Of a DNA stretch of 64,000 nt, positions 29,408-55,393 are shown one piece after another. Position 1 is the first letter of the stretch; every line of letters starts with the position of its first letter. Source of the stretch: Salinimicrobium tongyeongense (GTDB taxonomy: Bacteria; Bacteroidota; Bacteroidia; Flavobacteriales; Flavobacteriaceae); assembly GCF_026109735.1 (NCBI RefSeq), contig NZ_CP069620.1:496001-560000 (forward strand), given 5' to 3'. Below the pieces are notes generated by a model, which worked only from the letters and a program-made list of their open reading frames with translations, was not told the DNA's origin and did not search any database. The position numbers and the translations under genes were made by a program.

Positions 29408-29442
29408 CTTAAACCCCAAATTTTGAACCTTAAACTTTAACG
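29408..29442. repeat. Heptad-period tract at the 3' end of the oxidoreductase gene
   Basis: Five 7-bp units in register: CTTAAAC, CCCAAAT, TTTGAAC, CTTAAAC, TTTAACG. The tract runs over the stop codon of the minus-strand oxidoreductase gene (stop at 29430-29432). Confidence 0.55.
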
Positions 29443-30425
29443 AGCATCTTCCCTACATTGCGACCTTCAAAGAGGCCAATAAAAGCTTCAGGAAGTTTAT
29501 CAAAGCCTTCTACCACGGTTTCATCGTATTCAAGGTTTCCATCCTTCAGCCATTCACTTAACTGCCGCAGCGCTTTTCCGAAGTCCTTTGCGTGATCGCG
29601 AACCAGGAAACCCTGCATAAGGGCGGTCTTTTTGATAAGAATTCCTTCGGGCCTGGGTCCAACAGGTACTTCCGTTTCATTATAAGTAGATATTGCGCCA
29701 CAATTAATGATTCGGGCATCTTTGTTGATGGTTTGCAGCACGGCATCAAGAATCTCGCCCCCAACATTGTCAAAGTAGACATCAACCCCATCGGTACAAA
29801 TCCTTCTAATGGCATCGGCCATGTTCTCTTCTTTATTGTAGTTCAATCCTTTGTCAAGGCCAAATTTCTCTTCCAGATGTTTTACTTTTTCATCACTGCC
29901 GGCAATTCCCACCACCATACAGCCTTTGATCTTGCCAATTTGTCCGGCTATGCTCCCCACCGCTCCTGCCGCACCCGAAACCACGAGGGTCTCTCCAGGC
30001 TTAAGCCGCCCGATTTTATCGAGGGCGAGATAAGCGGTGAGCCCTGTTAATCCCAGCACTCCCAAAAATGCCGATAACGGGGCAAGATCGGGATCGACCC
30101 TGTTGAGGCCGGTTCCCGTAGACAGCTGCAACTCCTTCCATTTTAGCATTCCGGAGACATACTCTCCGGTTTGAAAGTTCTTATTCTTACTCTCCACAAC
30201 TTCGGCAACAACCATCGATTCTAAGGCTTCATTAACCTGAAAAGGAGGTATATAAGATTCTTCATTCCTCATTCTTCCGCGGAGATATGGATCTACTGAA
30301 ATGTAAAGCGCCCTGAGCAGGATCTCTCCTTCTTCCGGCTTTGGGTCGTTCTCTTCAATAGTTTCAAAATCTGAAGTTGCGGGTTTGCCTGCCGGACGGT
30401 TTTTTAATAGAATGGTTTTGGACAT
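29430..30425 (-). CDS. Zinc-independent NADP-dependent oxidoreductase (MDR family, YncB/CurA-like)
   Basis: 331 residues from MSKTILLKNRPAGKP; the frame extends 12 codons further but this start fits the family. An MDR fold: the N-terminal substrate-binding part with SVDPYLRGRM, then the Rossmann segment VSGAAGAVGSIAGQIGKIKGCMVVGIAGS, YFDNVGGEILDAVL and a C-terminal NVGKMLVKV. This is the leukotriene-B4-12-hydroxydehydrogenase/CurA branch that reduces activated double bonds with NADPH. The substrate is unknown. Its stop is embedded in a heptad-period tract. Confidence 0.92.
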   Translation of the reverse strand: MSKTILLKNRPAGKPATSDFETIEENDPKPEEGEILLRALYISVDPYLRGRMRNEESYIPPFQVNEALESMVVAEVVESKNKNFQTGEYVSGMLKWKELQLSTGTGLNRVDPDLAPLSAFLGVLGLTGLTAYLALDKIGRLKPGETLVVSGAAGAVGSIAGQIGKIKGCMVVGIAGSDEKVKHLEEKFGLDKGLNYNKEENMADAIRRICTDGVDVYFDNVGGEILDAVLQTINKDARIINCGAISTYNETEVPVGPRPEGILIKKTALMQGFLVRDHAKDFGKALRQLSEWLKDGNLEYDETVVEGFDKLPEAFIGLFEGRNVGKMLVKV

Positions 30426-30601
30426 GATGGGTTGGTTTTCATTGAAGATAAGGCTTCTCATGCATATTTACAAGCTGATATTTATGTAAATCAGAAATAA
30501 GAGAAGAATAATTTCAGTTAAAAACCAGGTACCGAAATGCACTTAAAAGTTACAGATATGACTCCAGAACTTCTCGTTCTTCAGCCTTAGCTAAACATTT
30601 T

Positions 30602-31342
30602 CTATTCTTCCAGAAGAAAACCTGTCCATGGCCTGTTGGTCATTCCCTCAGTGGTATTAAAGGTGTAAGTTCCACTCATCTCATTCTCCTGAAGTTCACC
30701 GGTGAGGATATAGTTTTCTCCTTCGTTATCGGGAATCATATCGTAGGTGAGCAGGTTGTCTTCCATACTCCACTCTCCCCATAGATCGTATACTCCGGGT
30801 ACCGCGGGTTCGGTATAAAAAGCCGTACCATCTTCATAAAATTCCACATGAGCAACCCAGGAAACATCTTCTTCATGATGATAAGTTAATTCCCATTTAG
30901 AGCCTGCCAGATTGTGGGTTTCAAGGCTCAACTGCTCCCCGTAAGCCGTACCCGCCTCATTAGTTGCAAAGGTTCTGAAGTAATAATTGATCCCCGGATT
31001 AAGGTCTTCAATCTTTACCACAAATGGATCTTCAGATTGCCGGTTATTACTTTTCTTCATGGAGACAGGGGTCGTTTGGCCTTCAGGCAGGGCCACATTG
31101 TCATCTAAAGTTGGATTTGGATTTGTACTCCAAACCACTCCGTAAGATTGAATGTCACTGGCATCGCCCATAAGGGTTCCTGAAATTTGCACAGAAGTAT
31201 GGGTGATGACCGCTTCAGATTCTCCGCTTAGGGTAACAACTTCGGGAAGTTGTGGTTCCCTGGTTCCATCATCAGAATCACAAGCCATAAAAAAGCTGAA
31301 ACTCATGAACATGAAAACAAATTTGTGTAATGAATTTTTCAT
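30602..31342 (-). CDS. Fibronectin-type-III-like lipoprotein of unknown function
   Basis: 246 residues. Lipobox FMAC (Cys21: MKNSLHKFVFMFMSFSFFMAC) followed by an acidic SDDG linker. The middle part is fibronectin-III-like (SVQISGTLMGDASDIQSYGVVWSTNPNPT, LNPGINYYFRTFATNEAGTAYGE), as in Bacteroidota lipoproteins. The last ~100 residues form a lipocalin-like beta-sheet (GSKWELTYHH, WSMEDNLLTYDMI, MSGTYTFNT). It is probably displayed on the outer membrane; no activity is deducible. The minus-strand sequence about 90 nt upstream has GTGTAACA, similar to part of the sulfur-gene operator (possibly chance). Confidence 0.85.
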   Translation of the reverse strand: MKNSLHKFVFMFMSFSFFMACDSDDGTREPQLPEVVTLSGESEAVITHTSVQISGTLMGDASDIQSYGVVWSTNPNPTLDDNVALPEGQTTPVSMKKSNNRQSEDPFVVKIEDLNPGINYYFRTFATNEAGTAYGEQLSLETHNLAGSKWELTYHHEEDVSWVAHVEFYEDGTAFYTEPAVPGVYDLWGEWSMEDNLLTYDMIPDNEGENYILTGELQENEMSGTYTFNTTEGMTNRPWTGFLLEE

Positions 31343-31463
31343 AATACCTGTTTTAAAGTGAATTTGAAAAGTACCGGAAAAATCCTGTCAACACAATACC
31401 ACTTTATAGGTATTTTTCTGATTATCATTATGTTACACATTATTCATTTAAGTTTCACCCATA

Positions 31464-31497
31464 AAAAAACCTCCCCGGTCTCCCGGAGAGGTTTTAA
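31464..31497 (-). terminator. Terminator after rpsA
   Basis: AAAACCTCCCCGG pairs with CCCGGAGAGGTTTT (slightly imperfect) with T-run on the minus strand, 22 nt past the rpsA stop. Confidence 0.85.
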
Positions 31498-31518
31498 ATA
31501 TTTAAAAATTTTAGGAAA

Positions 31519-33378
31519 TTAGTTCTTTCCTTCCATTTTATCTTTCAACGCCTGAAGTTCTGCGTTCACATCACCAATAGTGGTGTTGCTCTGAGCTTGT
31601 TGTGCAGCGGCTTTCTTTTGGGCCTGCTTTACAATTTGCTGCTCTTCTTCCTTGTGGATAGCAGTGTGAGATGCTACCACTCTCTTGAATTCTTTGTTGA
31701 ATTCAATGATCTGGAATTCTGCAGTTTCTCCCTGCTTAAGTTTGCTTCCGTCTTCTTTTTCAAGGTGACGTTGCGGAACGAATGCAGTGATATCTTCATT
31801 AAAGTCTATAGTCGCACCTTTGTCAACGATCTCTGTAATTGCAGCTGTGTGAGTAGTTCCTACAGCGAACTCAGATTCGTACTTATCCCAAGGGTTAGAC
31901 TCAGTTTGCTTATGACCAAGGCTTAGTTTGCGTCCTTCAACATCAAGTTCAAGAACAACTACCTCAAGTTTATCTCCTACGTTAGTAAATTCACTTGGGT
32001 GCTTGATCTTCTTAGTCCATGAAAGATCTGAGATATAGATAAGTCCGTCAATTCCTTCTTCAAGTTCTACGAAAACTCCGAAGTTTGTGAAGTTACGAAC
32101 AATACCAGTGTGTCTTGAACCTACAGGGTACTTAGAAGTGATATCAGTCCATGGATCTGGAGTCAATTGCTTGATACCAAGAGACATTTTTCTGTCTTCA
32201 CGATCTAAAGTAAGGATTTGAGCTTCAACCTCATCTCCAACGTTCACGAAGTCCTGAGCTGAGCGCAGGTGAGTACTCCATGACATTTCAGAAACGTGGA
32301 TAAGACCTTCAACACCTTCAGCAACTTCGATAAATGCACCGTAATCTGCGATCACAACTACTTTACCTTTTACTTTGTCACCAACTTTTAGGTTCTCGTC
32401 AAGAGCTTCCCATGGGTGTTTGCTAAGCTGCTTAAGACCAAGCTGAATTCTTGTTTTAGCCTCATCAAAGTCAAGGATAACAACGTTCAGTTTTTGATCA
32501 AGCTCAACGATCTCGTTTGGATGGTTGATTCTAGACCAGCTAAGATCGGTGATGTGGATAAGTCCGTCAACACCTCCAAGGTCAACGAATACACCGTAAG
32601 AAGTGATGTTCTTAACAGTACCTTCAAGTACCTGACCTTTTTCAAGCTGCCCGATAATTTCTTTTTTCTGCTCTTCGATATCGGCTTCGATAAGCGCTTT
32701 GTGAGAAACAACAACGTTCTTGAATTCGTGGTTGATCTTCACCACCTTGAATTCCATTGTTTTTCCAACGTATGCATCGTAATCCCTGATTGGCTTCACA
32801 TCGATTTGTGAACCCGGAAGGAAAGCTTCAATACCAAATACGTCTACGATCATACCACCTTTAGTGCGGCATTTCACGTAACCGTTCACGATAAGACCCT
32901 CGTCATGTGCTTTGTTCACACGATCCCATGCCATAATAACACGAGCCTTACGGTGAGAAAGGATCAACTGCCCTGTAGCATCTTCACGCACATCGATCAA
33001 TACCTCTACTTCATCCCCAACTTTAAGATCTGGGTTGTAACGGAACTCATTAAGAGAGATTACACCTTCACTTTTTGCATTGATGTCGATGATCGCATCA
33101 CGATCTGTAATGTTGATCACTTTTCCGGTAACTACTTCATCATGTAAAGTGTCAACGAAATTTTCTGCTACAAGCTTTTCAAATTCTTCCAGCTTTTGAT
33201 CGTCGATAGGATCAATTCCCTCTTCGTAGTTGTGCCAGTTGAATTCCTTTAAGAATTGCTCAGGATCTTGTTGCTGAACAGCCGCATCAGGTTGAGACTT
33301 AGCCCCCATTCCTGCTACCGGTTGAATTTCAGCGTTTTCAGAACCCTGAACTTCTTGGTTTTTGTTTTCTTCAGCCAT
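31519..33378 (-). CDS. rpsA: 30S ribosomal protein S1
   Basis: 619 residues with six S1 (OB-fold) domains, e.g. GKVINITDRDAIIDI, GTVKNITSYGVFVDLGGVDGLIHITDLSW, GKVVVIADYGAFIEVAEGVEGLIHVSEMSW, GIVRNFTNFGVFVELEEGIDGLIYISDLSW. It has an N-terminal acidic/Gln-rich extension of about 60 residues before the first domain. S1 binds mRNA for translation initiation; in Bacteroidota, where Shine-Dalgarno sequences are rare, it is likely to be important. A TTG-N20-TATTTTTG promoter was found upstream. It follows cmk by a wide gap (450 bp) on the same strand, so it is separately transcribed. Confidence 0.97.
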   Translation of the reverse strand: MAEENKNQEVQGSENAEIQPVAGMGAKSQPDAAVQQQDPEQFLKEFNWHNYEEGIDPIDDQKLEEFEKLVAENFVDTLHDEVVTGKVINITDRDAIIDINAKSEGVISLNEFRYNPDLKVGDEVEVLIDVREDATGQLILSHRKARVIMAWDRVNKAHDEGLIVNGYVKCRTKGGMIVDVFGIEAFLPGSQIDVKPIRDYDAYVGKTMEFKVVKINHEFKNVVVSHKALIEADIEEQKKEIIGQLEKGQVLEGTVKNITSYGVFVDLGGVDGLIHITDLSWSRINHPNEIVELDQKLNVVILDFDEAKTRIQLGLKQLSKHPWEALDENLKVGDKVKGKVVVIADYGAFIEVAEGVEGLIHVSEMSWSTHLRSAQDFVNVGDEVEAQILTLDREDRKMSLGIKQLTPDPWTDITSKYPVGSRHTGIVRNFTNFGVFVELEEGIDGLIYISDLSWTKKIKHPSEFTNVGDKLEVVVLELDVEGRKLSLGHKQTESNPWDKYESEFAVGTTHTAAITEIVDKGATIDFNEDITAFVPQRHLEKEDGSKLKQGETAEFQIIEFNKEFKRVVASHTAIHKEEEQQIVKQAQKKAAAQQAQSNTTIGDVNAELQALKDKMEGKN

Positions 33379-33500
33379 TGCTGATAATTAATTTGTATCC
33401 TGTATTCTTCCGGAAGATGTTCGCAATAAAAGAACACAGAAGTGTTTATAATATTGATTTTCAATCCTTTTAGTCTCCCGACCTATTGCTAAAAGGAGTG

Positions 33501-33531
33501 CAAAAATACAATTATTTTTGTCAATTAACAA
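33501..33531 (-). promoter_or_regulatory. rpsA promoter (Bacteroidota type)
   Basis: On the minus strand TTG (33529-33531), 20 nt, then TATTTTTG (33501-33508), fitting -33 TTTG / -7 TAnnTTTG. It leaves a leader of about 110-120 nt before the rpsA ATG, long enough for ribosomal-protein autoregulation (inference). Confidence 0.7.
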
Positions 33532-33533
33532 TG

Positions 33534-33575
33534 TAGATATGAGATTTTAGATAGGAGAGATGAGAATTGAAAATG
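33534..33575. repeat. Heptad-period tract upstream of the rpsA promoter
   Basis: Units TAGATAT, GAGATTT, TAGATAG, GAGAGAT, GAGAATT, GAAAATG in strict 7-bp register. Similar TAGATxx/GAGATTT units occur at 49642-49662. Confidence 0.6.
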
Positions 33576-33708
33576 CCAGTCAATAATAGCTGGCGAGAGA
33601 TATAACTTAATCTTAATTGCTGAGAAACCTTAGATGCTTAGACATCATTTATTTCCCGCTGATTTTGCAGATAAACGCAGATGTTTTAAATCCTTAAATT
33701 ACCTTCTT

Positions 33709-33723
33709 AAAATGTCATTTTGG
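33709..33723. repeat. Palindromic element, copy AAAATGTCATTTTGG
   Basis: An exact-core copy followed by AAACC; intergenic, downstream of cmk. Confidence 0.75.
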
Positions 33724-33783
33724 AAACCTTTGTTTGGTAGAAATAAAACCTGCCAAAGGGATTCATCTTCAAATTAAGCCATT

Positions 33784-33811
33784 GGAATTTGGTGCTTGTA
33801 ATTTGAAGGTT
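33784..33811. repeat. Heptad-period tract at the cmk 3' end
   Basis: GGAATTT, GGTGCTT, GTAATTT, GAAGGTT in 7-bp register, 18 nt from the cmk stop. The same GGAATTT/GGTGCTT units recur at 46832-46900 and, inverted, at 49690-49725. Confidence 0.6.
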
Positions 33812-33828
33812 ATGATAATTGATCATTG

Positions 33829-34521
33829 CTAATTATTAATTGCCTCATCGTACAACTCCAGGATCTTTTCGAACTGTCCTGCCAGGGTGAGGTGGGAATT
33901 ATCTATTTCTTTTGCGTCTTCAGCCTTTACAAGAGGGGAATCTTTTCTGGTGGTGTCTAAAAGGTCTCTTTCCTCCACATTTTCAAGCACCTCTTCAAAA
34001 GTGACATTTTCTCCTCTTTCCTGAAGTTCTAAAAACCGGCGTTGGGCACGTTCTTTTGCACTGGCAGTCATAAAGATCTTAAGCTCGGCCTTGGGAAAGA
34101 CCACAGTCCCTATGTCGCGCCCGTCCATCACAATGCCTTTTTCCCTGCCCATTTCCTGTTGCTGGGCTACAAGCATTTCACGCACCTGAGGTACTGCAGC
34201 TATTTTGCTCACATACTGGGAAACCTCCATTTGCCTTATCGGTTTTTCAACATTTTCGCCATTCAGGTACATTTCCCCGAAACCCACTTCAGGGTTAAAG
34301 ATGAACTTCAGCTTGATAAGAGGAAGATCGGCTATGAGTGCGGCAACATCAAAATGAGTTTCAGAAATGAATTTTTTCCGCAGCGCGTAAAGGGTAACTG
34401 CCCTGTACATCGCGCCTGTATCTACATACACATAACCCAGTTTTTTGGCCAGCTGCTTTGCCACGGTACTTTTACCTGTTGATGAAAAGCCGTCTATTGC
34501 AATGGTGATCTTTCTCGTCAT
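33829..34521 (-). CDS. cmk: Cytidylate kinase
   Basis: 230 residues with the P-loop GFSSTGKS (11-18), VYVDTGAMYRAVTLYALR, MDGRDIGTVVFP and the LID-like region RAQRRFLELQERGENVTFEEVLENVEERD. It phosphorylates CMP/dCMP for nucleotide supply. In many Bacteroidota it neighbours rpsA, as here. No terminator was recognised right after it; the tract after it holds repeats. Upstream (34522-34677) lies a palindrome copy. Confidence 0.96.
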   Translation of the reverse strand: MTRKITIAIDGFSSTGKSTVAKQLAKKLGYVYVDTGAMYRAVTLYALRKKFISETHFDVAALIADLPLIKLKFIFNPEVGFGEMYLNGENVEKPIRQMEVSQYVSKIAAVPQVREMLVAQQQEMGREKGIVMDGRDIGTVVFPKAELKIFMTASAKERAQRRFLELQERGENVTFEEVLENVEERDLLDTTRKDSPLVKAEDAKEIDNSHLTLAGQFEKILELYDEAINN

Positions 34522-37128: not shown

Positions 37129-37346
37129 ATCTGTTTTTAAGTCAAACTGTCACTGCAGTTATTATATCACAATCTATTTAGTTACTTTATTACCTTTACT
37201 CGTACTGTATAACAGGCATTTAAAGCACATTTTAGACACATTATTTCAATTCTTATGCCAACGTACAGAAAATCAATTAAAAGAAAATTCTGCAAAACTG
37301 TAACAATTTGAAAACTATCTCATCTTTATTATAAAGCTTTAAGATT

Positions 37347-45308: not shown

Positions 45309-46700
45309 ATGAGTAAATACGACGTTATAGTTTTAGGAAGTGGTCCCGGAGGCTACGTGACTGCCATTCGCGCATCACAGTTAGGATTCAAGACGGCTGT
45401 TATAGAAAAAGAAAATCTTGGGGGCGTTTGCCTCAACTGGGGATGTATCCCTACCAAAGCGCTTCTTAAAAGTGCCCAGGTTTTTGAATACCTTAACCAT
45501 GCTGAAGATTACGGATTAAAAGTTGAAAAAGCCGAAAAGGATTTTGGTGCCGTTATTAAACGCAGCCGAAATGTGGCCGAAGGGATGAGCAAAGGAGTTC
45601 AATTCCTGATGAAGAAAAACAAAATCGATGTTATTGACGGTTTCGGTAAACTAAAGTCGGGCAAAAAGATCGAGGTTACCGATAAAAACGATAAGAAGAC
45701 AGAGTATTCCGCAGATCATATTATCATCGCAACAGGAGCGCGTTCAAGAGAACTGCCAAACCTTCCGCAAGATGGTAAGAAAGTAATTGGTTACCGCCAG
45801 GCAATGAGCCTTGAAAAGCAGCCAAAATCTATGATCGTAGTTGGTTCAGGAGCTATTGGCGTTGAGTTCGCTCATTTTTACAAGACCATGGGTACCGAAG
45901 TGACCATTGTAGAGTTCCTTCCTAACCTGGTGCCGCTTGAAGATGAAGAAATCTCAAAACAATTTGAGCGCAGCTTCAAAAAAGCAGGAATTAAGGTGAT
46001 GACCAGCTCTTCTGTAGAGAGTGTAGATACTTCGGGAGACCTTGTAAAAGCACAGGTAAAGACCAAAAAAGGTATGGAAACCCTTGAGGCCGAAGTTGTA
46101 CTTTCAGCCGTGGGTATCAAATCTAACCTTGAAAACATAGGGCTTGAAGAACTAGGCATCAAAACCGACAGGGATAAGATCCTTGTGAACGATTTCTACG
46201 AGACCAATGTAAAAGGAATCTACGCTATTGGAGACGTGGTAGCAGGCCCTGCACTAGCTCACGTGGCTTCTGCGGAAGGGATCACCTGTGTTGAGAAGAT
46301 CAAGGGAATGCATGTAGAGCCTATTGACTACGGAAATATTCCCGGATGTACTTATGCCACGCCCGAAATTGCTTCAGTAGGTATGACCGAAAAGCAGGCT
46401 AAAGAGGCCGGTTACGAGCTGAAGGTTGGGAAATTCCCATTCTCTGCTTCCGGAAAAGCCAAAGCTGCCGGCACTCCTGACGGATTCGTAAAAGTGATCT
46501 TTGATGCCAAATATGGCGAATGGTTAGGCTGCCACATGATTGGGGCAGGCGTTACCGATATGATCGCTGAAGCTGTTCTTGGACGTAAACTGGAAACTAC
46601 AGGGCACGAAGTGCTAAAAGCCATTCACCCTCACCCAACCATGAGCGAAGCAGTGATGGAAGCCGTAGCCGATGCTTACGGGGAAGTGATACACCTTTAA
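45309..46700 (+). CDS. lpdA: Dihydrolipoyl dehydrogenase (E3)
   Basis: 463 residues. FAD-binding GSGPGG near the N-terminus, the redox pair GGVCLNWGCIP (Cys41 and Cys46), the NAD site GSGAIGVEF, YAIGDVVAGPALAHVASAEG, and the C-terminal active-site HPHPTMSEAV. It reoxidises dihydrolipoamide in the pyruvate, 2-oxoglutarate or branched-chain dehydrogenase complexes, or in the glycine cleavage system. It is a single gene, 177 nt after the lipoprotein stop, and followed 4 nt after its stop by a GTATATT heptad array and then a strong hairpin. Confidence 0.97.
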   Translation: MSKYDVIVLGSGPGGYVTAIRASQLGFKTAVIEKENLGGVCLNWGCIPTKALLKSAQVFEYLNHAEDYGLKVEKAEKDFGAVIKRSRNVAEGMSKGVQFLMKKNKIDVIDGFGKLKSGKKIEVTDKNDKKTEYSADHIIIATGARSRELPNLPQDGKKVIGYRQAMSLEKQPKSMIVVGSGAIGVEFAHFYKTMGTEVTIVEFLPNLVPLEDEEISKQFERSFKKAGIKVMTSSSVESVDTSGDLVKAQVKTKKGMETLEAEVVLSAVGIKSNLENIGLEELGIKTDRDKILVNDFYETNVKGIYAIGDVVAGPALAHVASAEGITCVEKIKGMHVEPIDYGNIPGCTYATPEIASVGMTEKQAKEAGYELKVGKFPFSASGKAKAAGTPDGFVKVIFDAKYGEWLGCHMIGAGVTDMIAEAVLGRKLETTGHEVLKAIHPHPTMSEAVMEAVADAYGEVIHL

Positions 46701-46704
46701 GAAA

Positions 46705-46760
46705 GTATATTGTATATTGTATATTGTATATTGAATATTGAATAATGTATAATATATAAT
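46705..46760. repeat. GTATATT heptad array after lpdA
   Basis: GTATATT four times in a row, then GAATATT, GAATAAT, GTATAAT and a degenerate unit, all in 7-bp register and starting 4 nt after the lpdA stop. A closely similar array follows hpf at 55249. Confidence 0.9.
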
Positions 46761-46789
46761 GTGGGGCGGGTTATTTAGTTCCACAGAAT

Positions 46790-46825
46790 AAAAAAACCTC
46801 CGGAAAAATTTCCGGAGGTTTTTTG
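46790..46825 (+). terminator. Hairpin terminator, bidirectional, between two heptad arrays
   Basis: AAAAAACCTCCGGAAA pairs with TTTCCGGAGGTTTTTT; flanked by heptad arrays at 46705 and 46832. It lies between convergent genes. Confidence 0.92.
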
Positions 46826-46831
46826 TTTGTT

Positions 46832-46928
46832 GGCATTTGGAATTTGGTGCCTGGAATTTGGTGCTTGGTGCTTGGTCTTGGTGCTTAGTGCTTGTAATTT
46901 CAATATAAAATATTCAATCTAAAATATT
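46832..46928. repeat. GGTGCTT/GGAATTT heptad array at the MoxR gene 3' end
   Basis: GGCATTT, GGAATTT, GGTGCCT, GGAATTT, GGTGCTT, GGTGCTT, GGTCTT (one base short), GGTGCTT, AGTGCTT, GTAATTT, then CAATATA, AAATATT, CAATCTA, AAATATT. It ends about 13 nt from the stop of the minus-strand MoxR gene (46942). It is opposite in sense to the neighbouring GTATATT array, across the hairpin. Confidence 0.9.
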
Positions 46929-46941
46929 AAATTATTACTCC

Positions 46942-48414
46942 TTAATCTTTCCGAAGTCCTTCAATGTAGCTTCCATACATATCCTTGAACTGCATCCCCT
47001 GCGAAAACCGGAATTTATTCAGCTTTTTGTATTCCACCAGCCCCCATAGCACAAACTCTTTCAGAAAATATTTGTCTTCTTCGGGTACGTTCGGCTGGTA
47101 TTTGTTCACGAGGTCTTCAAGTGCCGGGATGGAATCAAGGGCTTTTTTGTATTCGGCATCCGAAGTTTCATCAAGCAGCTCAAAGCCACTTTCGGAGAAG
47201 AACCAGTCCACAATTTCGGAGTATGGATCTTTGGCATCGGGCTTCTGCAGCTTTTCGATCTTTGGGAACATGGTTGGGAAAAGTGATTTTACGGCTTCTC
47301 CTATAAGTTCCTGCGCTACCATGGCACTTCCCTCCTGCTCTCCTTCATAGACCAGCTCAATTTTACCGGTTATTGACGGAATGACCCCAAGAAAATCTCC
47401 CAGCCTGAGAAGCGTCTTATTTTCGCCATTTTTGACAGCCCTGCGTTCGGCTGTGCTCACAAGGTTTTCAAATGCGGTAATACTCAGCCGTGCACTTATC
47501 CCGCTTCGGGAATCTACATATTCATGGTCTCGTGCCTCAAAACTTATTTGCTCCAGGAGGTCGTTGGCAAGTTCGGGAACCTGAACCATTTCCAGCTGCC
47601 CCTGCTCAAGCCTGGCTTCCTGCTGCGTGATCTTTTTGGCAGTTTTCACGTCTACGGGGTAGTGAGTGAGTATCTGGGAGCCAATCCTGTCTTTAAGAGG
47701 CGTTACTATGCTTCCGCGATTGGTGTAATCTTCGGGGTTCGCAGTGAATATAAACTGCATGTCTAAAGGCAACCTCAGCTTAAATCCGCGGATTTGTATA
47801 TCCCCTTCCTGAAGAATATTGAATAAGGCTACCTGTATACGCGCCTGCAGGTCGGGCAGCTCGTTAATGACGAAAATACTTCGGTTGGCACGGGGGATCA
47901 TTCCGTAGTGAATCACGCGGTCATCGGCATAATTCAGTTTCAGGTTGGCGGCTTTGATGGGGTCTACATCCCCAATAATATCGGCTACGGTCACATCGGG
48001 CGTGGCAAGTTTTTCAAAGAACCTTTCATTCCTGTGAACCCACGAAATAGGGATCTCATCGCCCTGCTCCTCGAGTAGTTCCCGGGCATGGCGCGAAATA
48101 GGCCGAAAAGGATCATCATTGATCTCAGAGCCTTCAACTACAGGAATATATTCGTCTAAGAGATTTACCATCATCCTGGCGAGGCGCGTTTTAGCCTGCC
48201 CCCTCAAGCCCAGAAAGTTGATGTTATGCTTTGAGAGGATTGCCCGCTCTACCTCAGGAATTACCGTGTTTTCATACCCATGAATCCCTTCAAAAGCCGG
48301 CTCGTTGTTCTTAATCTTTTTCAGCAGATTTTGCCTGAGTTCCTCTTTTATGCTTTTGCTTTGATAACCATAGTCCTTTAATGCTCCAAACGTGCTGAGC
48401 TTCTGTATATCCAT
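46942..48414 (-). CDS. MoxR-like AAA+ ATPase (magnesium-chelatase-I-like)
   Basis: 490 residues from MDIQKLSTFGALKDYGY; the frame extends ten codons further. The Walker A segment is FLGLRGQAKTRL (G-x-x-G-x-A-K-T, with A where canonical GKT has G). Walker B region: SIFVINELPDLQARIQVALFNILQEGDIQIRG; sensor: PLDMQFIFTANPEDYTNRG. The C-terminal 130 residues are helical and unlike RavA's LARA domain. It is downstream of the VWA gene (48 nt gap), together forming a chaperone-like MoxR-VWA pair. The target is unknown. Confidence 0.88.
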   Translation of the reverse strand: MDIQKLSTFGALKDYGYQSKSIKEELRQNLLKKIKNNEPAFEGIHGYENTVIPEVERAILSKHNINFLGLRGQAKTRLARMMVNLLDEYIPVVEGSEINDDPFRPISRHARELLEEQGDEIPISWVHRNERFFEKLATPDVTVADIIGDVDPIKAANLKLNYADDRVIHYGMIPRANRSIFVINELPDLQARIQVALFNILQEGDIQIRGFKLRLPLDMQFIFTANPEDYTNRGSIVTPLKDRIGSQILTHYPVDVKTAKKITQQEARLEQGQLEMVQVPELANDLLEQISFEARDHEYVDSRSGISARLSITAFENLVSTAERRAVKNGENKTLLRLGDFLGVIPSITGKIELVYEGEQEGSAMVAQELIGEAVKSLFPTMFPKIEKLQKPDAKDPYSEIVDWFFSESGFELLDETSDAEYKKALDSIPALEDLVNKYQPNVPEEDKYFLKEFVLWGLVEYKKLNKFRFSQGMQFKDMYGSYIEGLRKD

Positions 48415-48462
48415 GTCCTGAAAAATTTGTTTGAAAAAGGCCATTTTCGGGCCTTTAATATT

Positions 48463-49641: not shown

Positions 49642-49781
49642 TAGATGGGAGATTTTAGATTTTATAAGATATTAGTAGTGAGAAATCTCAAATTCCAAGC
49701 ACCGAATATTAAGTACCAAGCACCAAATTCTAATTCCTAACTTTCAAATCTTCAAATTGAAAAATTGGCAAATTTTCAAAT
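49642..49781. repeat. Long heptad-period tract upstream of the MoxR-VWA pair
   Basis: About twenty 7-bp units in register, mixing TAGATGG/GAGATTT-like, AATTCCA/AGCACCA-like (complement of the GGTGCTT/GGAATTT units) and TTCAAAT-like heptads. It fills the interval from 61 nt beyond the VWA start to the stop of the next minus-strand gene (49784), so it abuts that stop. Confidence 0.7.
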
Positions 49782-49783
49782 CT

Positions 49784-50509
49784 TTAAATCGAAATCAGGT
49801 CGCAATAATAAAACCTGGTGTCCCAGGCTTCCTTCTCTTTTTTAAAGCAATCATCGTCTTCATCTCCTGCGGAAGTAAAAAACTTCTCTACAATTTCCCC
49901 TTTTTGGAAGCTTACTGGTTTTGAAAATATGGGGCCGTCAAAAACGAAGGTGTGAAATTCCCCGTTCTCGCCGGCAGGATCTACGCCCAAAGGTAAATCG
50001 ACTAGAAATTCTTCATCTACAAGCCTTCCGCAGAAAGATTTATCCAGGACCTTTGCATTCACACTCACCGTTACAGCCTTAAAGCCGGCAGCGAGGATTT
50101 GTTTCATGAGGGCTGAAGTATCTTTTTTCCACAGCGGAAAAAGCCCTTCAATTTCCACTTTTTGAAGCTCCTGTTCGCGGTAATGTTTTAAATCTTCCAG
50201 AAGAATATCCCCAAAAATACTGTAATCAAAACCTGATTTTTTCAGCTTCAGCATTTCCTCTTCCATAACTTTGTTATAGGTTTTCATGGAGACATTACCG
50301 GCCAGAGGAATGATCTCTAACGGAATACCAATACTTTCGGCCTGCTTCAGCAATAAATCACTTCGAAGCCCGTGCATGGAAATCCTGTCAACTTCAGAAT
50401 TAACTGTGGTAAGCAACTTTTCTACGGAATATTCTTTCTGCTGCTGCATGAGATAAAGTGCAAATGCCGCGTCTTTTCCAGAACTCCAGTTCAAAAAGGC
50501 CTTTTTCAT
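49784..50509 (-). CDS. N-type ATP pyrophosphatase (annotated diphthine-ammonia-ligase-like)
   Basis: 241 residues. The PP-loop SSGKDAAFALYLMQQ near the N-terminus is the ATP pyrophosphatase motif; the rest (SKTYNKVMEEEMLKLKKSGFDYSIFGDILLEDLKHYREQELQKVEIEGLFPLWKKDT, GEFHTFVFDGPIF) is the family annotated as Dph6/diphthine-ammonia ligase or MJ0570. Bacteria lack diphthamide, so the true reaction is unknown. It overlaps aroQ by 4 nt; the pair probably makes one transcript. Confidence 0.85.
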   Translation of the reverse strand: MKKAFLNWSSGKDAAFALYLMQQQKEYSVEKLLTTVNSEVDRISMHGLRSDLLLKQAESIGIPLEIIPLAGNVSMKTYNKVMEEEMLKLKKSGFDYSIFGDILLEDLKHYREQELQKVEIEGLFPLWKKDTSALMKQILAAGFKAVTVSVNAKVLDKSFCGRLVDEEFLVDLPLGVDPAGENGEFHTFVFDGPIFSKPVSFQKGEIVEKFFTSAGDEDDDCFKKEKEAWDTRFYYCDLISI

Positions 50510-50925: not shown

Positions 50926-50980
50926 AAGGTAAATGTAGAAAATAAAAAAACGGAAACACAGCTTCCGCTTTTAACAGGCT

Positions 50981-50997: not shown

Positions 50998-51011
50998 ACC
51001 CCTGATCCTTT

Positions 51012-51473
51012 TTAAAGTCGGAATTCAGCCCCAAGGTTAATGGAACCTGCTGTGCCGCCATCCATGCTTATGCCGGTGTAAGAAGCGATAAGCCCCACCC
51101 CGAATAGGTTGAACCCAATTTTGGGTTTGTAATAGAAGCCGCCGTCAACCCCGTCGGTCAAACCAAGGGCATAGCCAAGATCGGCTCCCAATTCGACGTT
51201 GGCAAGGCCAAACCTGGCAGTTGCAGCAAGTGGCAGAAAAGAAAGGTCGTCAAACTCATCTACAAAAAAGTGGGTGTAGCCCAGCATTGGCCCCAGCTGA
51301 AAAGTCTCAAAACCCATGAGGTAGGCCACATCTGCCCCTATATTAAAATCTGATGCATCCGAAATATCCCCTACCGGAATTCCTGCATTCACTCCTAACC
51401 TGATATCGCCCTGCGCATAAGTGGAAGTAAAACTTACGGCCATAAAAATAAGAGAACATAAAAATTTCTTCAT
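51012..51473 (-). CDS. Small outer-membrane beta-barrel protein of unknown function
   Basis: 153 residues. Signal peptide MKKFLCSLIFMAVSFTSTYAQ, then strands suited to an 8-stranded barrel (GDIRLGVNAGIPVGDI, GADVAYLMGFETFQLGPMLGYTHFF, LPLAATARFGLANVELGADLGYAL, INLGAEFRL with C-terminal aromatic/charged end). It resembles the OmpW/opacity type of small barrels but no family is certain. It stands alone between aroQ and another barrel gene on the same strand. Confidence 0.82.
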   Translation of the reverse strand: MKKFLCSLIFMAVSFTSTYAQGDIRLGVNAGIPVGDISDASDFNIGADVAYLMGFETFQLGPMLGYTHFFVDEFDDLSFLPLAATARFGLANVELGADLGYALGLTDGVDGGFYYKPKIGFNLFGVGLIASYTGISMDGGTAGSINLGAEFRL

Positions 51474-51592
51474 AATTTCAAGTTTTTAAAGGTTATATTA
51501 CACTAAATTAGTCATTTACACCTTACGCTTGTCGAGTAACTGAAATTACTTTGAAAGGATAAACTTACATGCTACTACACCTAAAAGCATAA

Positions 51593-51625
51593 AAAAAGGC
51601 TGCCTCATTGAAGACAGCCTTTTTA
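51593..51625 (-). terminator. Terminator after the second beta-barrel gene
   Basis: AAAAAGGCTG pairs with CAGCCTTTTT around a loop of about 14 nt, with T-run on the minus strand, 17 nt past the stop at 51643. Confidence 0.85.
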
Positions 51626-51642
51626 TAGCTTTCAGGTCTTTC

Positions 51643-52230
51643 TTAAAACAAGAATCCAATCCCGGCCTGTACTACAGAGTTCTTGGCTTCAACACCCTCA
51701 ATATCATAAATATCGGTCATACCCGCATTATACCTTCCATAAAGGAAAAAGTTGTTGAATTTGTAAGAAGCTCCTAGCCCCAGACTTAAATCAAATTTGT
51801 TGATGTTGTCATCAGACACATCCATATCGTTATCTCCAAACCCTACTTCATGGTCTGCAAGAAAACTGAATTGCGGTCCTGCTTCAAGGCTTAGCCCTCT
51901 TACCACATAGAACTTAGCCATAACAGGAACGCTAACATAATCTAGTTTATGCTCCAGGTCATCGCCATCTTCAACTTCTACAATGTCGTACCCCTGTGCT
52001 GAGTAAAGCACCTCAGGCTGGAGAGAAAAACGATCTGATAACGGGATTTCGGCCACTAAACCTAAATGATATGCGGTTCTTGCACTTTCATCCTCAAAAT
52101 CTGACCATCCGTCTCCTGAAAAGGTAGAGAAGTTCACCCCTCCTTTTGCTCCAAAGTAAACGAATTCCTGTGCAGCAACAAATGTTGTACTAAATACCAT
52201 TGCTGCGATAAACAAAATTGACTTTTTCAT
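51643..52230 (-). CDS. PorT/OMP_b-brl_2-like outer-membrane beta-barrel protein
   Basis: 195 residues from MKKSILFIAAMVFSTTFVAAQ, the natural signal peptide; an ATG a few codons upstream (MKIMKK) is possible. The mature part has porin-family strands: FVYFGAKGGVNFSTF, YHLGLVAEIPLSDRFSLQPEVLYSAQGYDIVE, DYVSVPVMAKFYVVRGLSLEAGPQFSFL, LGLGASYKFNNFFLYGRYNAGM, VQAGIGFLF. It is the common small outer-membrane barrel (PorT-like) of Bacteroidota; its ligand is unknown. It is divergent from xerD. Confidence 0.9.
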   Translation of the reverse strand: MKKSILFIAAMVFSTTFVAAQEFVYFGAKGGVNFSTFSGDGWSDFEDESARTAYHLGLVAEIPLSDRFSLQPEVLYSAQGYDIVEVEDGDDLEHKLDYVSVPVMAKFYVVRGLSLEAGPQFSFLADHEVGFGDNDMDVSDDNINKFDLSLGLGASYKFNNFFLYGRYNAGMTDIYDIEGVEAKNSVVQAGIGFLF

Positions 52231-52342
52231 AATTTTCATTTTTAAAAGTTCAGGGACAAATGTAGGAGGCATAGTGTTAAGAAAAACTCACTTTATATTA
52301 AAGTACTCGTAAATCCGTACTTTTAGCACCAATTTTTAGCCT

Positions 52343-53239
52343 GTGAACTGGGAAAATGCCTTGAAAGACTACCGCCACTACCTCAAAATTGAGCGAGGCC
52401 TGGCCGCGAATACCATAGAGAATTACGCGCTCGATGTAGAAAAACTTTCAAACTGGGTGGTGGCAAATGAGATCAAAACATCGCCTGTTTCTATTTCTGA
52501 AGGTGAAGTACAACAGTTCATATACGAGCTTGCCAAAAAAATGAATGCCCGCTCGCAGGCAAGAATCATTTCGGGCCTTCGCAGCTTCTTTAGTTATCTT
52601 GTCTTTGAAGATTACCGCAAAACCAATCCTCTCGAATTAATTGAATCTCCAAAAACAGGACGTAAATTGCCAGCTACCCTTTCTACGGAAGAGATCGATA
52701 CTCTTATTGCGGCCATAGACCTTAGTAAACCTGAAGGAGAAAGGAACCGTGCCATTTTGGAAACCCTGTACGGCTGCGGACTCCGGGTTTCTGAATTGAC
52801 AAATCTTCAGCTTAGCGATCTGTTCTTTGATGAAGGCTTTATTAAGGTAACCGGAAAGGGAAGCAAATCGCGCTTTGTACCCATAGCTGAAACCACCTGC
52901 AAATACATTAAACTTTACATAAAGCATATACGGGCGCACCAGGATATCCAAAAAGGCCACGAAGACACACTATTTCTGAATCGCCGTGGTAAGCAGCTCA
53001 CTCGCGCCATGATCTTTACAATTATAACAAGACTGGCGAGCATGATCGGATTACAAAAAAAGATTAGCCCGCACACCTTCAGGCATTCCTTTGCAACGCA
53101 TTTACTTGAAAACGGGGCCGATTTACGGGCCATTCAGCAAATGCTGGGGCACGAGAGCATCACCACTACCGAGATTTACGTTCATATGGACCGTTCCCAC
53201 CTGCGCAAAGTAATGGAGGAGTTTCACCCGAGACGTTAG
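52343..53239 (+). CDS. xerD: Tyrosine recombinase XerD
   Basis: 298 residues, starting with GTG at 52343. An N-terminal SAM-like core (LKIERGLAANTIENYALDVEKL) and a catalytic domain with Arg in GCGLRVSELTNL, Lys in GKGSKSRFVPI, HTFRHSFATHLLENGADLRAIQQMLGHES and the nucleophile Tyr279 (STTTEIYVHMD). It resolves chromosome dimers at dif with a partner. A chromosomal xer gene rather than a mobile integrase: neighbours are housekeeping genes and no att site is evident. A heptad tract begins 5 nt after its stop. Confidence 0.95.
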   Translation: MNWENALKDYRHYLKIERGLAANTIENYALDVEKLSNWVVANEIKTSPVSISEGEVQQFIYELAKKMNARSQARIISGLRSFFSYLVFEDYRKTNPLELIESPKTGRKLPATLSTEEIDTLIAAIDLSKPEGERNRAILETLYGCGLRVSELTNLQLSDLFFDEGFIKVTGKGSKSRFVPIAETTCKYIKLYIKHIRAHQDIQKGHEDTLFLNRRGKQLTRAMIFTIITRLASMIGLQKKISPHTFRHSFATHLLENGADLRAIQQMLGHESITTTEIYVHMDRSHLRKVMEEFHPRR

Positions 53240-53243
53240 CACG

Positions 53244-53278
53244 ATTCAAAATTCAAGATCCAGGATTTAAAAATTTTA
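53244..53278. repeat. Heptad-period tract after xerD
   Basis: ATTCAAA, ATTCAAG, ATCCAGG, ATTTAAA, AATTTTA in 7-bp register, starting 5 nt after the xerD stop. Confidence 0.6.
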
Positions 53279-53426
53279 TTCTAATCAGGAATTCTTAATT
53301 TTTTAAAAAGTCGTATTTCAAACGCCGTACCTCTAAACTTTTTGAACACTAAAAATTTGCTAAACCATAGAAATTCCTTTGGCAGCAGCCTTTTCCTGAT
53401 TAATTTAAGCAGATAAAATAACAATT

Positions 53427-54374
53427 ATGGAAACACTTAAGTTTAAAAACGGAGATACCATGCCGGCTATTGGCCTGGGAACATGGAAATCAAATAAAGG
53501 AAAAGTAGGAGAAGCAGTTAAAATCGCACTTAATAACGGCTACCGCCATATTGACTGTGCAGCAACTTATGGCAATGAAGCCGAAATTGGCAGCGCTTTC
53601 AAAGAAGTCTTTGCCCGGGGAAAAATAAAAAGGGAAGATGTATGGGTGACCTCCAAGCTGTGGAACGATTCTCATAAAAAAGAGCATGTAATTCCTGCGC
53701 TTAAAAAAACTTTAGACGATCTACAGCTCGATTACCTCGACCTCTACCTTATTCACTGGCCGGTGGCTTTTAAGCACGGCGTGGGTTTTCCTTCAGGTGA
53801 CGACGAATATCTCTCGCTTGAAGAAGTGCCCATCATCGAAACCTGGAATGCCATGATAGAAGCAAAGAAACAGGGGCTGGTTAAACACATTGGGGTATCA
53901 AACTTCAGCAGTAAAAAACTCGAAGACCTCATGTCTCAAACTACCGAAGTGCCAGAAATGAACCAGGTGGAACTTCATCCTTTTCTCCCTCAGCCAGAGC
54001 TTTTACAGTTTTGCCGCGAAAACAATATCCACAACACCGCTTATTCACCCCTGGGCAGTGGAGATCGCAGTGAACAAATGAAAGCCGAGAACGAACCTTC
54101 GCTTTTAGAAGAGCCCGCCATAGTAGAAATTGCCGGCAAACACAATGTTTCCCCTGCGCAGGTACTTATCAAATGGGCGGTGACACGCGGCACTGCGGTA
54201 ATCCCAAAATCTACCACAGAAAAACACATTATATCCAATCTTGAGAGTATCAACGTAAAGTTAGATGAAGAAGATCTCAAGAAAATCGCGGGCATAGAAC
54301 GGCATTTTAGGTATGTGACCGGCGAGTTCTTTGTCACCCCCGGCAATTCATACAACAACATCTATGACTTATAG
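53427..54374 (+). CDS. Aldo/keto reductase
   Basis: 315 residues. Catalytic tetrad region: Asp43 and Tyr48 (IDCAATYGNE), Lys in VTSKLWN, and His in LIHWP. Further fold features are GVSNFSSKKL, NQVELHPFL and AVIPKST. It reduces aldehydes or ketones with NADPH. Its C-terminus (RHFRYVTGEFFVTPGNSYNNIYDL) resembles the aldehyde-reductase group. It overlaps the following lipoprotein gene by 11 nt. Confidence 0.94.
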   Translation: METLKFKNGDTMPAIGLGTWKSNKGKVGEAVKIALNNGYRHIDCAATYGNEAEIGSAFKEVFARGKIKREDVWVTSKLWNDSHKKEHVIPALKKTLDDLQLDYLDLYLIHWPVAFKHGVGFPSGDDEYLSLEEVPIIETWNAMIEAKKQGLVKHIGVSNFSSKKLEDLMSQTTEVPEMNQVELHPFLPQPELLQFCRENNIHNTAYSPLGSGDRSEQMKAENEPSLLEEPAIVEIAGKHNVSPAQVLIKWAVTRGTAVIPKSTTEKHIISNLESINVKLDEEDLKKIAGIERHFRYVTGEFFVTPGNSYNNIYDL

Positions 54375-54831
54375 CTCTTACCTCCCAAAAATGGCACTCT
54401 GGCTCCTCTTTTTTGGAGCTTTGAGCAGCTGCAATAACAGGAACGGCGAAATAGAGGCCAGGAATCAGGAGATCGATTCACTTTCCCGCGAAATTAGCGG
54501 GCAAAGGCAGCTGGTAGACTCGCTGCAAAACCTTCAGGAAAGTGACCACGACAATAAACCCCTTCAGGTTTACTTCGGAAGGGAGTTTAAGGACATTGAA
54601 GACCCCGAAAGCCACATCATTGAAGCCCTGAAACAGCAAAAGGAGCTTATTCCGCTTGATGCAGTTCTTGGCGGAACTATGGAATTCAGGCAGGTGCAGG
54701 TCATTTCCGAAGATTGGGTACTGGCAGTTTATGACGATGGCCACGTACAGGGAAAATCAATTTTTGAATATGAGCTTCAGGAAAATAATGAAGTGAATTT
54801 TACAGAAGTTGCATCAAAGCTTCCGCAGTAG
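54364..54831 (+). CDS. Coiled-coil lipoprotein of unknown function
   Basis: 155 residues from MTYSSYLPKMALWLLFF. The lipobox LSSC follows; a start at 54391 (MALWLLFF) would still leave a short signal peptide but lacks a positive charge. The mature part begins with a coiled-coil (NRNGEIEARNQEIDSLSREISGQRQLVDSLQNLQES) followed by a compact acidic domain (YFGREFKDIEDPESHIIEALKQQKELIPLDAVLGG). No family was recognised. It overlaps the aldo/keto reductase by 11 nt. Confidence 0.8.
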   Translation: MTYSSYLPKMALWLLFFGALSSCNNRNGEIEARNQEIDSLSREISGQRQLVDSLQNLQESDHDNKPLQVYFGREFKDIEDPESHIIEALKQQKELIPLDAVLGGTMEFRQVQVISEDWVLAVYDDGHVQGKSIFEYELQENNEVNFTEVASKLPQ

Positions 54832-54841
54832 GAATAGCCGG

Positions 54842-54859
54842 GAAAAATGCCATTTTTGG
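54842..54859. repeat. Palindromic element, copy GAAAAATGCCATTTTTGG
   Basis: An exact-core copy followed by AACG in the intergenic region before hpf. Confidence 0.8.
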
Positions 54860-54943
54860 AACGTTATATTTTTTATAAACTACCCACTTTCCGAAGCAAT
54901 TTTGCTATCTTGAAGAAGTATATTTTAAGTAAAAAAGAAGAAT

Positions 54944-55243
54944 ATGAAGACAAACATTCAATTTGTACACGCAGACACAAAAATTTCGGCAGAACAACTT
55001 GTTCAGAGAAAACTTGATAAACTTGAAAATAAATTTGACTGGATCATCTCTGCAGATGTGATGTTTAGAGAAGAAAAATCTACCAACGGCAACGGAAAAA
55101 CCTGCGCTATAGAATTAAGCCTTCCGGGGCCAAAAATTCACGCCTCTTCTAATGCCGACAGCTTTGAAGCCGCGGCAGCCGAAACCGTAAAAGATTTAGA
55201 AAAACAACTTCAGAAACGAAAAGCCGAGATGCAAAGCCACTAA
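54944..55243 (+). CDS. hpf: Ribosome hibernation-promoting factor (short form)
   Basis: 99 residues, a single HPF/RaiA beta-alpha-beta domain (MKTNIQFVHADTKISAEQLVQRKLDKLENKFDWIISADVMF, AIELSLPGPKIHASSNADSFEAAAAETVKDLEKQL). It lacks the C-terminal dimerisation tail of long HPF. It binds the ribosome decoding region in stationary phase. It is transcribed alone; a GTATATT heptad array starts 5 nt after its stop, then a terminator. Confidence 0.93.
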   Translation: MKTNIQFVHADTKISAEQLVQRKLDKLENKFDWIISADVMFREEKSTNGNGKTCAIELSLPGPKIHASSNADSFEAAAAETVKDLEKQLQKRKAEMQSH

Positions 55244-55248
55244 TAATT

Positions 55249-55297
55249 GTATATTGTATATTGTATATTGTATAGTGTATAGTGTATATTGTATAGT
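55249..55297. repeat. GTATATT heptad array after hpf
   Basis: GTATATT three times, GTATAGT twice, GTATATT, GTATAGT, in 7-bp register, starting 5 nt after the hpf stop. It is almost the same repeat as after lpdA (46705), though the genes are unrelated. Confidence 0.9.
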
Positions 55298-55304
55298 GAA
55301 AATT

Positions 55305-55346
55305 AAAAAAGGCTGCCGGGAAATGATTTTTCCGGCAGCCTTTTTT
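55305..55346 (+). terminator. Bidirectional terminator between hpf and murA
   Basis: AAAAAAGGCTGCCGG pairs with CCGGCAGCCTTTTTT around an A/T-rich loop, flanked by heptad arrays on both sides. Confidence 0.92.
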
Positions 55347-55358
55347 ATTGCATATAAG

Positions 55359-55393
55359 TCTTGACTCTTGTTTCTTAACTCTAGTCTCTTCGA
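55359..55393. repeat. TCTTGAC-type heptad array at the murA 3' end
   Basis: TCTTGAC, TCTTGTT, TCTTAAC, TCTAGTC, TCTTCGA in strict 7-bp register, ending 2 nt from the murA stop (55396) on the minus strand. Confidence 0.7.

Follow-up and report, generated by a model that had tools for sequence, protein, structure and literature searches.

Heptamer Arrays at the Locus

The stretch of DNA analysed here, the window, comprises 64,000 nucleotides (positions 496001–560000) of the one-contig, 3.51 Mb genome of Salinimicrobium tongyeongense, labelled G000, and several of its intergenic spacers hold tandem arrays of seven-nucleotide units that lie close to the ends of genes. A sequence-only reading had listed nine such tracts between 29408 and 55393. 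All nine are present as placed. Compared with 2000 dinucleotide-shuffled versions of the sequence it occupies, each reaches p < 0.05 at lag 7 or 14; these p-values are optimistic since the tracts were chosen by eye. However, the description of a strict 7-bp unit is too strong for six of them. Eight of the nine run across a stop codon or have one within 20 nt (distances −13, 17, 4, 13, 2, 4, 5, and 2), as the reading had stated. The units follow each other head to tail with no unique spacers, unlike clustered regularly interspaced short palindromic repeats (CRISPR) or other spacer arrays, and Tandem Repeats Finder reports period-7 or period-14 rows at the strong tracts and low-scoring rows at 33535, 33813, 49650, and 55359.

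The two strongest tracts are near-perfect GTATATT arrays behind unrelated genes, lpdA and hpf, a recurrence that the sequence-only reading had already pointed out. Past lpdA (45309–46700, plus strand; NCBIfam match TIGR01350), the GTATATT (TATTGTA) array at 46705–46762 (+) begins 4 nt after the stop codon, with a score of 39.8 for 46705–46760. It is followed by a two-way terminator-like hairpin at 46791–46824 and by an array of GCACCAA/ATTCCAA units at 46832–46937 (−), spelled TTGGAAT/TTGGTGC on the plus strand, which continues as AT-rich heptads ending 9 nt from the stop of the gene at 46942–48444 (−). This third strong tract scores 15.8 over 46832–46928, where a different lag reaches 14.7. 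Past hpf (54944–55243, plus strand; match TIGR00741), the same GTATATT (TATTGTA) unit forms an array at 55246–55297 (+), 2 nt after the stop, with a score of 39.1 for 55249–55297. A G+C-rich hairpin with A-run and T-run flanks at 55311–55340, read from the sequence and outside the listing of the hairpin scan (loop limit of 8), separates it from a CAAGANN array at 55359–55393 (−) that ends 2 nt from the stop of murA (55396–56709, minus strand) and reads outward, i.e., 5′ to 3′ away from the coding end. Hairpins like this one occur in most of eleven orthologous spacers. The murA array scores 11.1 at lag 14 (0/2000 shuffles), and the CAAGANN family is also seen by eye in related species.

The six window tracts other than these three strong ones score 6.8 to 11.1. 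At 29408–29442 (−), a weak TTCAAGG/TTTAAGG-family array (6.8 at lag 14, p = 0.0085) lies at and across the stop of an oxidoreductase gene (29430–30461, minus strand), reading outward, and the same family is found by eye at the orthologous place in the related genomes G003, G007, G008, and G006. The GAGATNT/TAGATNT array at 33534–33575 (score 10.0, p = 0.002) is the only tract away from a stop codon, as had been noted; it lies inside the rpsA–cmk spacer, 155 nt from the rpsA start and 253 nt from a stop, and relatives of it are seen by eye at the equivalent place in G008, G005, and G006. In the same spacer, ATTCCAA/GCACCAA units and then CAATNAN units at 33784–33842 (−), compared with six orthologous spacers, enter the stop of cmk (33829–34521, minus strand). 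The conserved end of cmk (AINN-stop, window 33829–33842 and its orthologs) itself consists of CAATNAN units, and CAATNAN continues beyond it in several species. A mosaic of weak heptads (TAGATTT, GCACCAA, and TTCAAAT) at 49642–49781 occupies the greater part of the spacer that precedes the stop of 49784–50509 (−); it reaches p = 0.0095 at lag 7, although both lag 7 and lag 14 are outscored by another lag (17.0), and the orthologous spacers contain other mosaics. Finally, a GATTCAN/TTCAAGA array at 53244–53278 (+) (score 9.1, p = 0.0005) stands 4 nt past the stop of a xerD-type recombinase gene (52343–53239, plus strand), a place taken, by eye, by GGTTCAA in G003 and by GATTCAN in G007 and G011.

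A Period of Seven in Salinimicrobium Spacers

The wider survey covered an 864 kb sample of G000, formed by the window and 40 stretches of 20 kb, and 400 kb from each of two further Salinimicrobium species, G007 and G011, giving 1.66 Mb in the three genomes. Gene calls came from our own dicodon caller for Salinimicrobium and from a longest-ORF (open reading frame) caller for loci of other phyla; under both callers, gene starts are less certain than stops. Segments were counted from a score of 10 upwards in a first sample of 464 kb used for the shuffle comparison, and from 12 upwards in the three-genome scan.

In the first sample, 14 segments were found at lag 7 against 0.55 in shuffled sequence and 16 at lag 14 against 0.45, while none of the remaining lags between 4 and 20 exceeded 5 segments. 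At the stricter threshold, the counts for G000, G007, and G011 were 22, 28, and 27 at lag 7, 17, 17, and 18 at lag 14, and 12, 5, and 6 at lag 21, compared with 0 to 4 segments at all remaining lags from 4 to 20, so that only 7, 14, and 21 stand out; G007 alone holds 38 tracts in 400 kb. An excess at lag 7 over shuffled spacers had been set beforehand as the result on which the proposal depended, and in terms of discrete segments it is found at both lags 7 and 14. The bulk autocorrelation tells less: outside the window it is slightly raised at lag 7 (0.284 vs 0.276, z 3.4), but lags 3, 9, and 12 are equal or higher. The signal thus resides in discrete tracts, most spacer DNA being without 7-periodicity. 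Thus, the period-7 tracts are real and above chance in the spacers.

The same step is visible in how the tracts differ between species. Insertions and deletions with a length that is a multiple of seven make up 8 of 24 inside tracts and 12 of 112 elsewhere in the between-species comparison (Fisher p = 0.009), and the close pair G006/G008 shows whole-heptad differences with two 7-nt indels. These observations, together with the enrichment of multiples of seven only, support a growth process with a 7-nt step that the tracts would have in common, a common process having been suggested by the sequence-only reading.

Placement at Coding Ends

The three genomes together provide 108 tracts, of which 65 belong to tandem spacers, 36 to convergent and 7 to divergent ones, classes that contribute 103,973, 28,914, and 39,982 of the 172,869 spacer bases, respectively. 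Orthologous spacers common to the three samples were left in, and the counts are therefore partly non-independent. When every tract was re-placed randomly inside its own spacer in 1000 rounds, 15.9 ± 2.8 tracts fell within 10 nt of a stop, whereas 46 of the 108 actually do (0/1000). Within 10 nt of a start there are 18, compared with 10.1 ± 2.2 after random placement, an excess that comes mainly from G000 (11 vs 5.2 ± 1.4) and is absent from G011 (3 vs 3.2). Therefore, the arrays abut coding ends, and stops above all, and the non-random placement with respect to stops anticipated from the window extends to the samples.

Many arrays go beyond mere contact. Among the 42 anchored at one stop only, 22 overlap the stop codon, and TAA is the stop codon of 15 of the 42 array-bearing genes compared with 968 of all 1509 called genes (Fisher p = 2.2 × 10⁻⁴). 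Arrays thus seem to replace gene ends and stop codons, and may therefore change the ends of genes.

A terminator or other 3′-end role was also considered for these arrays and is not supported by the hairpins of the stop-side spacers of 40–1500 nt. Terminator-like hairpins are less frequent at array-bearing stops than at others, both in convergent (7/25 vs 108/243) and in tandem arrangement (3/29 vs 143/532). Where an array and a hairpin are both present, the hairpin lies past the array in 9 of 10 cases; the tracts themselves do not form a hairpin with a T-run, and the window hairpins stand beside the arrays. Hence, neither a link of arrays with terminators nor a special gene-end role finds support in the stop-side spacers of the three samples.

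Unit Families and Outward Polarity

It had been proposed that the window tracts share the period and not the sequence. This does not hold, since the units belong to recurring families with a preferred strand. Spelled outward, the recurring families include AGTGNTC, CAATNAN, GGTTYAA, CAAGANN, KAGAYNT, TATTGNN, RGTTNTC, CTAGANN, and GCACCAA/ATTCCAA. Twelve family patterns were used, chosen after the arrays had been inspected; 11 of them are represented at 40 nt or less from a coding end, eight with at least 8 arrays each. In the three samples, 50 of 55 such arrays near stops and 16 of 20 near starts read outward, and the proportion near stops is 70 of 78 when related species are added. CAATNAN taken alone is outward in the genus at 13:1 for stops and 7:1 for starts. 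Moreover, in spacers with an array at each end, all 12 pairs face each other, 10 of them combining different families. The polarity of stop-side arrays is 28:3 on the left and 22:2 on the right and, as both sides agree, the replication strand is not the explanation.

A label-free control, which allows for the choice of patterns at stops, gives 50 consistent arrays compared with 36.8 ± 2.2 under random strands (0/20000). At starts alone, the same control is not significant (17 vs 15.3 ± 1.2, 3342/20000), and the polarity there is instead based on the prediction from the stop labels (16/20, p = 0.012) and on the cross-phylum test of AGTGNTC described below. An earlier test relying on shared 6-mers gave a clear signal in the pool (277:177) and in G007 (59:18) and a weak one in G011 (18:9), and at the stops of G000 alone it gave none, with 32 in the same and 32 in the opposite orientation.

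None of the 12 patterns fixes a run of three G, with some GGGTTGC units occurring in G006, G008, and G007. The RGTTNTC arrays of G007 are closely related to TAACTGA, and no window tract is TAACTGA. The unit TTGGAATTTGGTGCTT is found in 11 of 12 genomes of the genus and in none of 28 other genomes searched. A dense mosaic of numerous heptad families, GGAGTTC, GTTTGTG, CGGATTG, and TTGGTGC among them, was also seen at 7696–7916 of the stretch L055, where the ORF called around it is unlikely to be genuine.

Two readings of the unit sequences were tried and set aside. A conserved core with variable positions appeared strong at first (chi-square 614 vs 354 ± 20.5); however, counting distinct variants only left a weak effect (618 vs 586.5 ± 12.5, 39/4000), and no selection on a unit core is therefore claimed. 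The idea that the arrays serve to provide a stop codon in every frame was rejected as well, since tandem arrays of GTATATT, CAAGAGC, and TTGGTGC, read by hand, contain no stop. Moreover, stop codons are possible in either orientation of AGTGNTC and CAATNAN, and a need for them thus does not fix the strand.

Turnover at Orthologous Places

The family found at a given gene end changes between species. Past lpdA, GTATATT is present in G000 and G003 and GAGTATT in G008, while CTAGANN flanks the terminator on both sides in G005, G006, G007, and G011, with a doubled unit in G011. In the lpdA spacer of this last genome (L098), the array–terminator unit stands twice with other DNA between the copies, as if duplicated or interrupted by an insertion. 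Past hpf, GTATATT is present in G000, G003, and G005 and GGTTTAA in G006, G007, G008, G010, and G011, and no array is seen by eye in G001, G002, G004, and G009. A hairpin between the arrays is kept in most species; that of the lpdA spacer is kept with changed letters, while the arrays around it change.

Other elements occupy the same or nearby spacers. Near-palindromes of the type GTCCCTACGGGAC are dispersed in the spacer orthologous to 33379–33828, several in L096 (G006) and L091 (G008) and two in L097 (G011), and none was seen in this spacer of G000. A spacer block of about 50 bases within window 57365–57467 is almost identical across most of eleven related genomes, and could be a leader or RNA element. 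In addition, the divergent spacer at 37129–37346 contains blocks kept in eight related genomes, one of them similar to AAGTCAAACTGTCACTGCAGTTATT and located beside the 816-aa gene.

The Outward Rule in Other Bacteria

Arrays of at least three AGTGNTC units occur in at least 119 stretches, and the matches listed include Planctomycetes, Chloroflexi, Acidobacteria, Verrucomicrobia, Cyanobacteria, Bacteroidota, and others; one of the 119, L184, comes from Salinimicrobium itself. The strand to be expected was fixed beforehand from Salinimicrobium. Among the matches listed, arrays within 50 nt of a coding end are outward or inward at 37:10 for stops and 29:3 for starts, and within 100 nt at 40:18 and 34:5, so that between 50 and 100 nt from a stop only 3 are outward and 8 inward. 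These figures set aside the 13 of 130 listed arrays that lie inside ORFs, those at twelve loci being in sense-strand orientation; with all 13 taken as start-side inward arrays, starts would stand at 29:16 (p = 0.07). AGTGNTC thus mostly obeys the outward rule in many phyla.

CAATNAN does not follow it in other Bacteroidota. Arrays of this family occur in 52 of 395 Bacteroidota genomes, and in 30 Bacteroidota loci (one from G000, five inside ORFs) the outward to inward counts within 50 nt are 8:7 for stops and 1:5 for starts, the latter becoming 1:9 within 300 nt. In G437, the CAATNAN arrays, read by eye, are outward in 5 of 5 cases at stops and 2 of 3 at starts, and in G044 the AGTGNTC arrays are outward in 4 of 5 and 3 of 3 cases, respectively. 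The abutment of stops is clear in G437 (13 vs 7.0 ± 1.3, 0/1000) and not significant in G044 (5 vs 2.6 ± 1.2, 63/1000), and abutment of starts is absent from both (3 vs 2.6 in G044, 5 vs 5.3 in G437).

Relation to Known Heptamer Repeats

Heterocystous cyanobacteria possess heptamers known as short tandemly repeated repetitive (STRR) sequences. Several tandem heptamers have been distinguished, three of them in Calothrix (cited in PMC4692102), a multiplicity that resembles the many families described here. Among the G-rich heptamers, GGGNATC in Xanthomonas and GGGGAYT in Nostoc show a strand preference: upstream of ORFs they favour the non-coding strand, and downstream the coding one. They also lie nearer to the 5′ neighbouring ORF in any orientation and are few between divergent ORFs (PMC4692102). 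The Salinimicrobium arrays share with them the period of seven, the location in spacers, the scarcity in divergent spacers, and the coding strand near stops and non-coding strand near starts. Likewise, the Xanthomonas and Nostoc repeats lie mostly between the same genes while their length and sequence vary between two species (PMC4692102). Hence, the arrays follow the strand rule of those repeats, with the exception of CAATNAN in other Bacteroidota. Nevertheless, the family in PMC4692102 is G-rich and quadruplex-forming, whereas eleven families are found near coding ends here, most of them without G runs, including GTATATT and CAATNAN.

A second relative is the direct repeat TAACTGA of Beggiatoaceae, Cyanobacteria, and five Bacteroidetes, Gramella forsetii among them (PMC4679880). 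Its sets also mix related heptamers, and its outward strand, AGTTATC, belongs to the RGTTNTC family. In BOGUAY and in Flexibacter litoralis (12 of 14 sets in the latter), TAACTGA immediately precedes starts and is mostly in forward orientation there, whereas a set located past a stop is reversed, so that AGTTATC is again the outward strand. It is, however, a single heptamer located mostly at starts in BOGUAY, whereas in Salinimicrobium there are many families and stops come foremost. Furthermore, a sample of 24 sets from Microcystis comprises six forward, eight reverse, and eight between stops (PMC4679880), a mixture that argues against a universal polarity rule. The same paper compares two Cyanothece strains, whose indels occur "in 7 nt increments", and cites Mrazek 2007 for the finding that heptanucleotides are the most frequent class of long repeat in most genomes surveyed and for the proposal of slippage over a 7-nt polymerase footprint. 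The citation does not mention polarity relative to genes or several families per place.

A literature search, with most subscription journals outside its coverage, found no paper on such arrays in Salinimicrobium. Heptamer repeats as a kind, and the outward rule for G-rich heptamers (PMC4692102), are thus already known from these sources. The present analysis adds the many non-G-rich families within one genome, the pairs of facing arrays, the replacement of one family by another between orthologous spacers, and the test across phyla.

Possible Origins of the Arrays

The account favoured here, tentatively and at somewhat less than an even chance, is that the arrays are heptanucleotide long simple sequence repeats that arise by a slippage-type process with a 7-nt step and are tolerated outside promoters. 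Arrays would grow and shrink because the strands slip or misalign while DNA is synthesised, preferably by seven nucleotides at a time, and selection would clear them from promoters and coding DNA, so that the coding end would become the fixed edge of an array. In favour of this account are the enrichment of multiples of seven only, the scarcity in divergent spacers, the abutment and apparent replacement of gene ends, the whole-heptad differences between G006 and G008, the turnover of families, and the Cyanothece indels. A 7-nt slippage step, as already proposed in print, accounts for the period most economically. Three sets of observations weigh against this account: the polarity is strong at stops, starts, and in facing pairs, while slippage predicts no preferred strand; families are common to unrelated genes and even distant phyla, which local slippage would not lead one to expect; and 16 of the 24 between-species tract indels are not multiples of seven, although the species are fairly diverged. 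For the polarity, the accounts that remain are outward extension of DNA ends, selection on sense-strand composition, or both.

Extension of DNA ends, which is unlikely, would occur when a broken spacer is healed: 3′ ends would be trimmed to the coding boundary, extended in heptads, and then joined, leaving an outward array on each side and the two arrays facing. This predicts the outward polarity at stops and starts, the 5′ edge of arrays at the coding end, the replaced gene ends, and facing pairs of different families, as found in 10 of the 12, and the end-joining protein Ku is present in 10 of 12 genomes of the genus and in all 10 complete ones. However, Ku is equally present in G004, which has only 2 matches to the TTGGAATTTGGTGCTT pattern. 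Hairpins lie between the facing arrays at 46701–46941 and 55244–55395 in several species, and end extension would therefore need two separate events there. Along 52 arrays there is no gradient of purity (0.785 vs 0.759, p = 0.21), and thus neither a distal nor a proximal growth gradient is apparent; the inward excess of listed AGTGNTC arrays 50–100 nt from stops and the failure of CAATNAN in other Bacteroidota also count against it. Selection on composition or signals, which is unlikely on balance, would instead let both orientations arise and remove those with a harmful sense strand, i.e., start codons or G before starts and C-rich stretches past stops that could load Rho. On the outward strand, G exceeds C in 41 of 50 scorable stop-side arrays (41:9) and in 12 of 16 start-side arrays. 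Array-free spacers also lean to G outward at starts (444 vs 247), and the polarity of start-side arrays may therefore need no other cause; at stops, they lean the opposite way (260 vs 302), so that base composition may suffice for starts and not for stops. Moreover, the outward strand of CAATNAN has more C than G, yet this family still reads outward in the genus. In its most general form, end healing would be a directional synthesis across bacteria that starts at the coding boundary and lays mosaic heptamer arrays 5′ to 3′ outward, resembling a telomere-like healing of ends within the chromosome, a proposition that must be regarded as distinctly doubtful. If it were true, every gene end, start or stop, could carry its own array and neighbouring arrays would face each other.

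The remaining explanations fare less well. A gene-end function such as transcript insulation or protection of the 3′ mRNA end, raised by the sequence-only reading, fits the stop-proximal placement and the hairpins found past arrays in nine of the ten joint cases, but it is very unlikely: hairpins are rarer at array-bearing stops, arrays occur at starts too, close species carry different families at the equivalent spot and several related species, by eye, none at the equivalent genes, and an Rfam search of window 29000–56000 gave no match. Seeding of the unit from the last seven coding bases has some suggestive cases, since the last bases of cmk are AACAATTAG or nearly so, and in 5 of 8 genomes a period-7 segment spans its stop; the oxidoreductase gene ends in AAGGTTTAA in G003 and G007, followed by a GGTTYAA array in G007, and the last eight coding bases match the unit slightly more often (0.48 vs 0.27 at position −7). 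As a general rule, however, seeding is largely refuted and highly improbable, because continuation into the array's own coding end surpasses that of 95% of other gene ends for no more than 5 of 50 arrays at stops and 1 of 16 at starts. Copying of heptads from an RNA template into the chromosome by a telomerase-like reverse transcriptase of the DRT10 type is exceedingly unlikely. DRT10 does make tandem-repeat DNA in a telomerase-like manner (PMC12632851), but as described there its synthesis of complementary DNA (cDNA) is RNA-templated, serves phage defence, and has a motif of variable length (9 nt in the main example), unlike the period of always seven found here. Moreover, only 6 of 12 genomes of the genus have an RVT_1 match, and its absence from the array-rich G007, as well as from G006 and G008, disfavours this mechanism.

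Concluding Remarks

In Salinimicrobium, several unrelated heptamer families in one genome share one strand rule, and species differ in the family present at one place; this points to a common way of building or maintaining such repeats in bacteria. The texts of PMC4692102 and PMC4679880, as far as available, leave the cause of heptamer repeats open, and the present facts narrow the possible causes. Any account must cover both the 7-nt step and the polarity, and it is the polarity that is the part worth following up.

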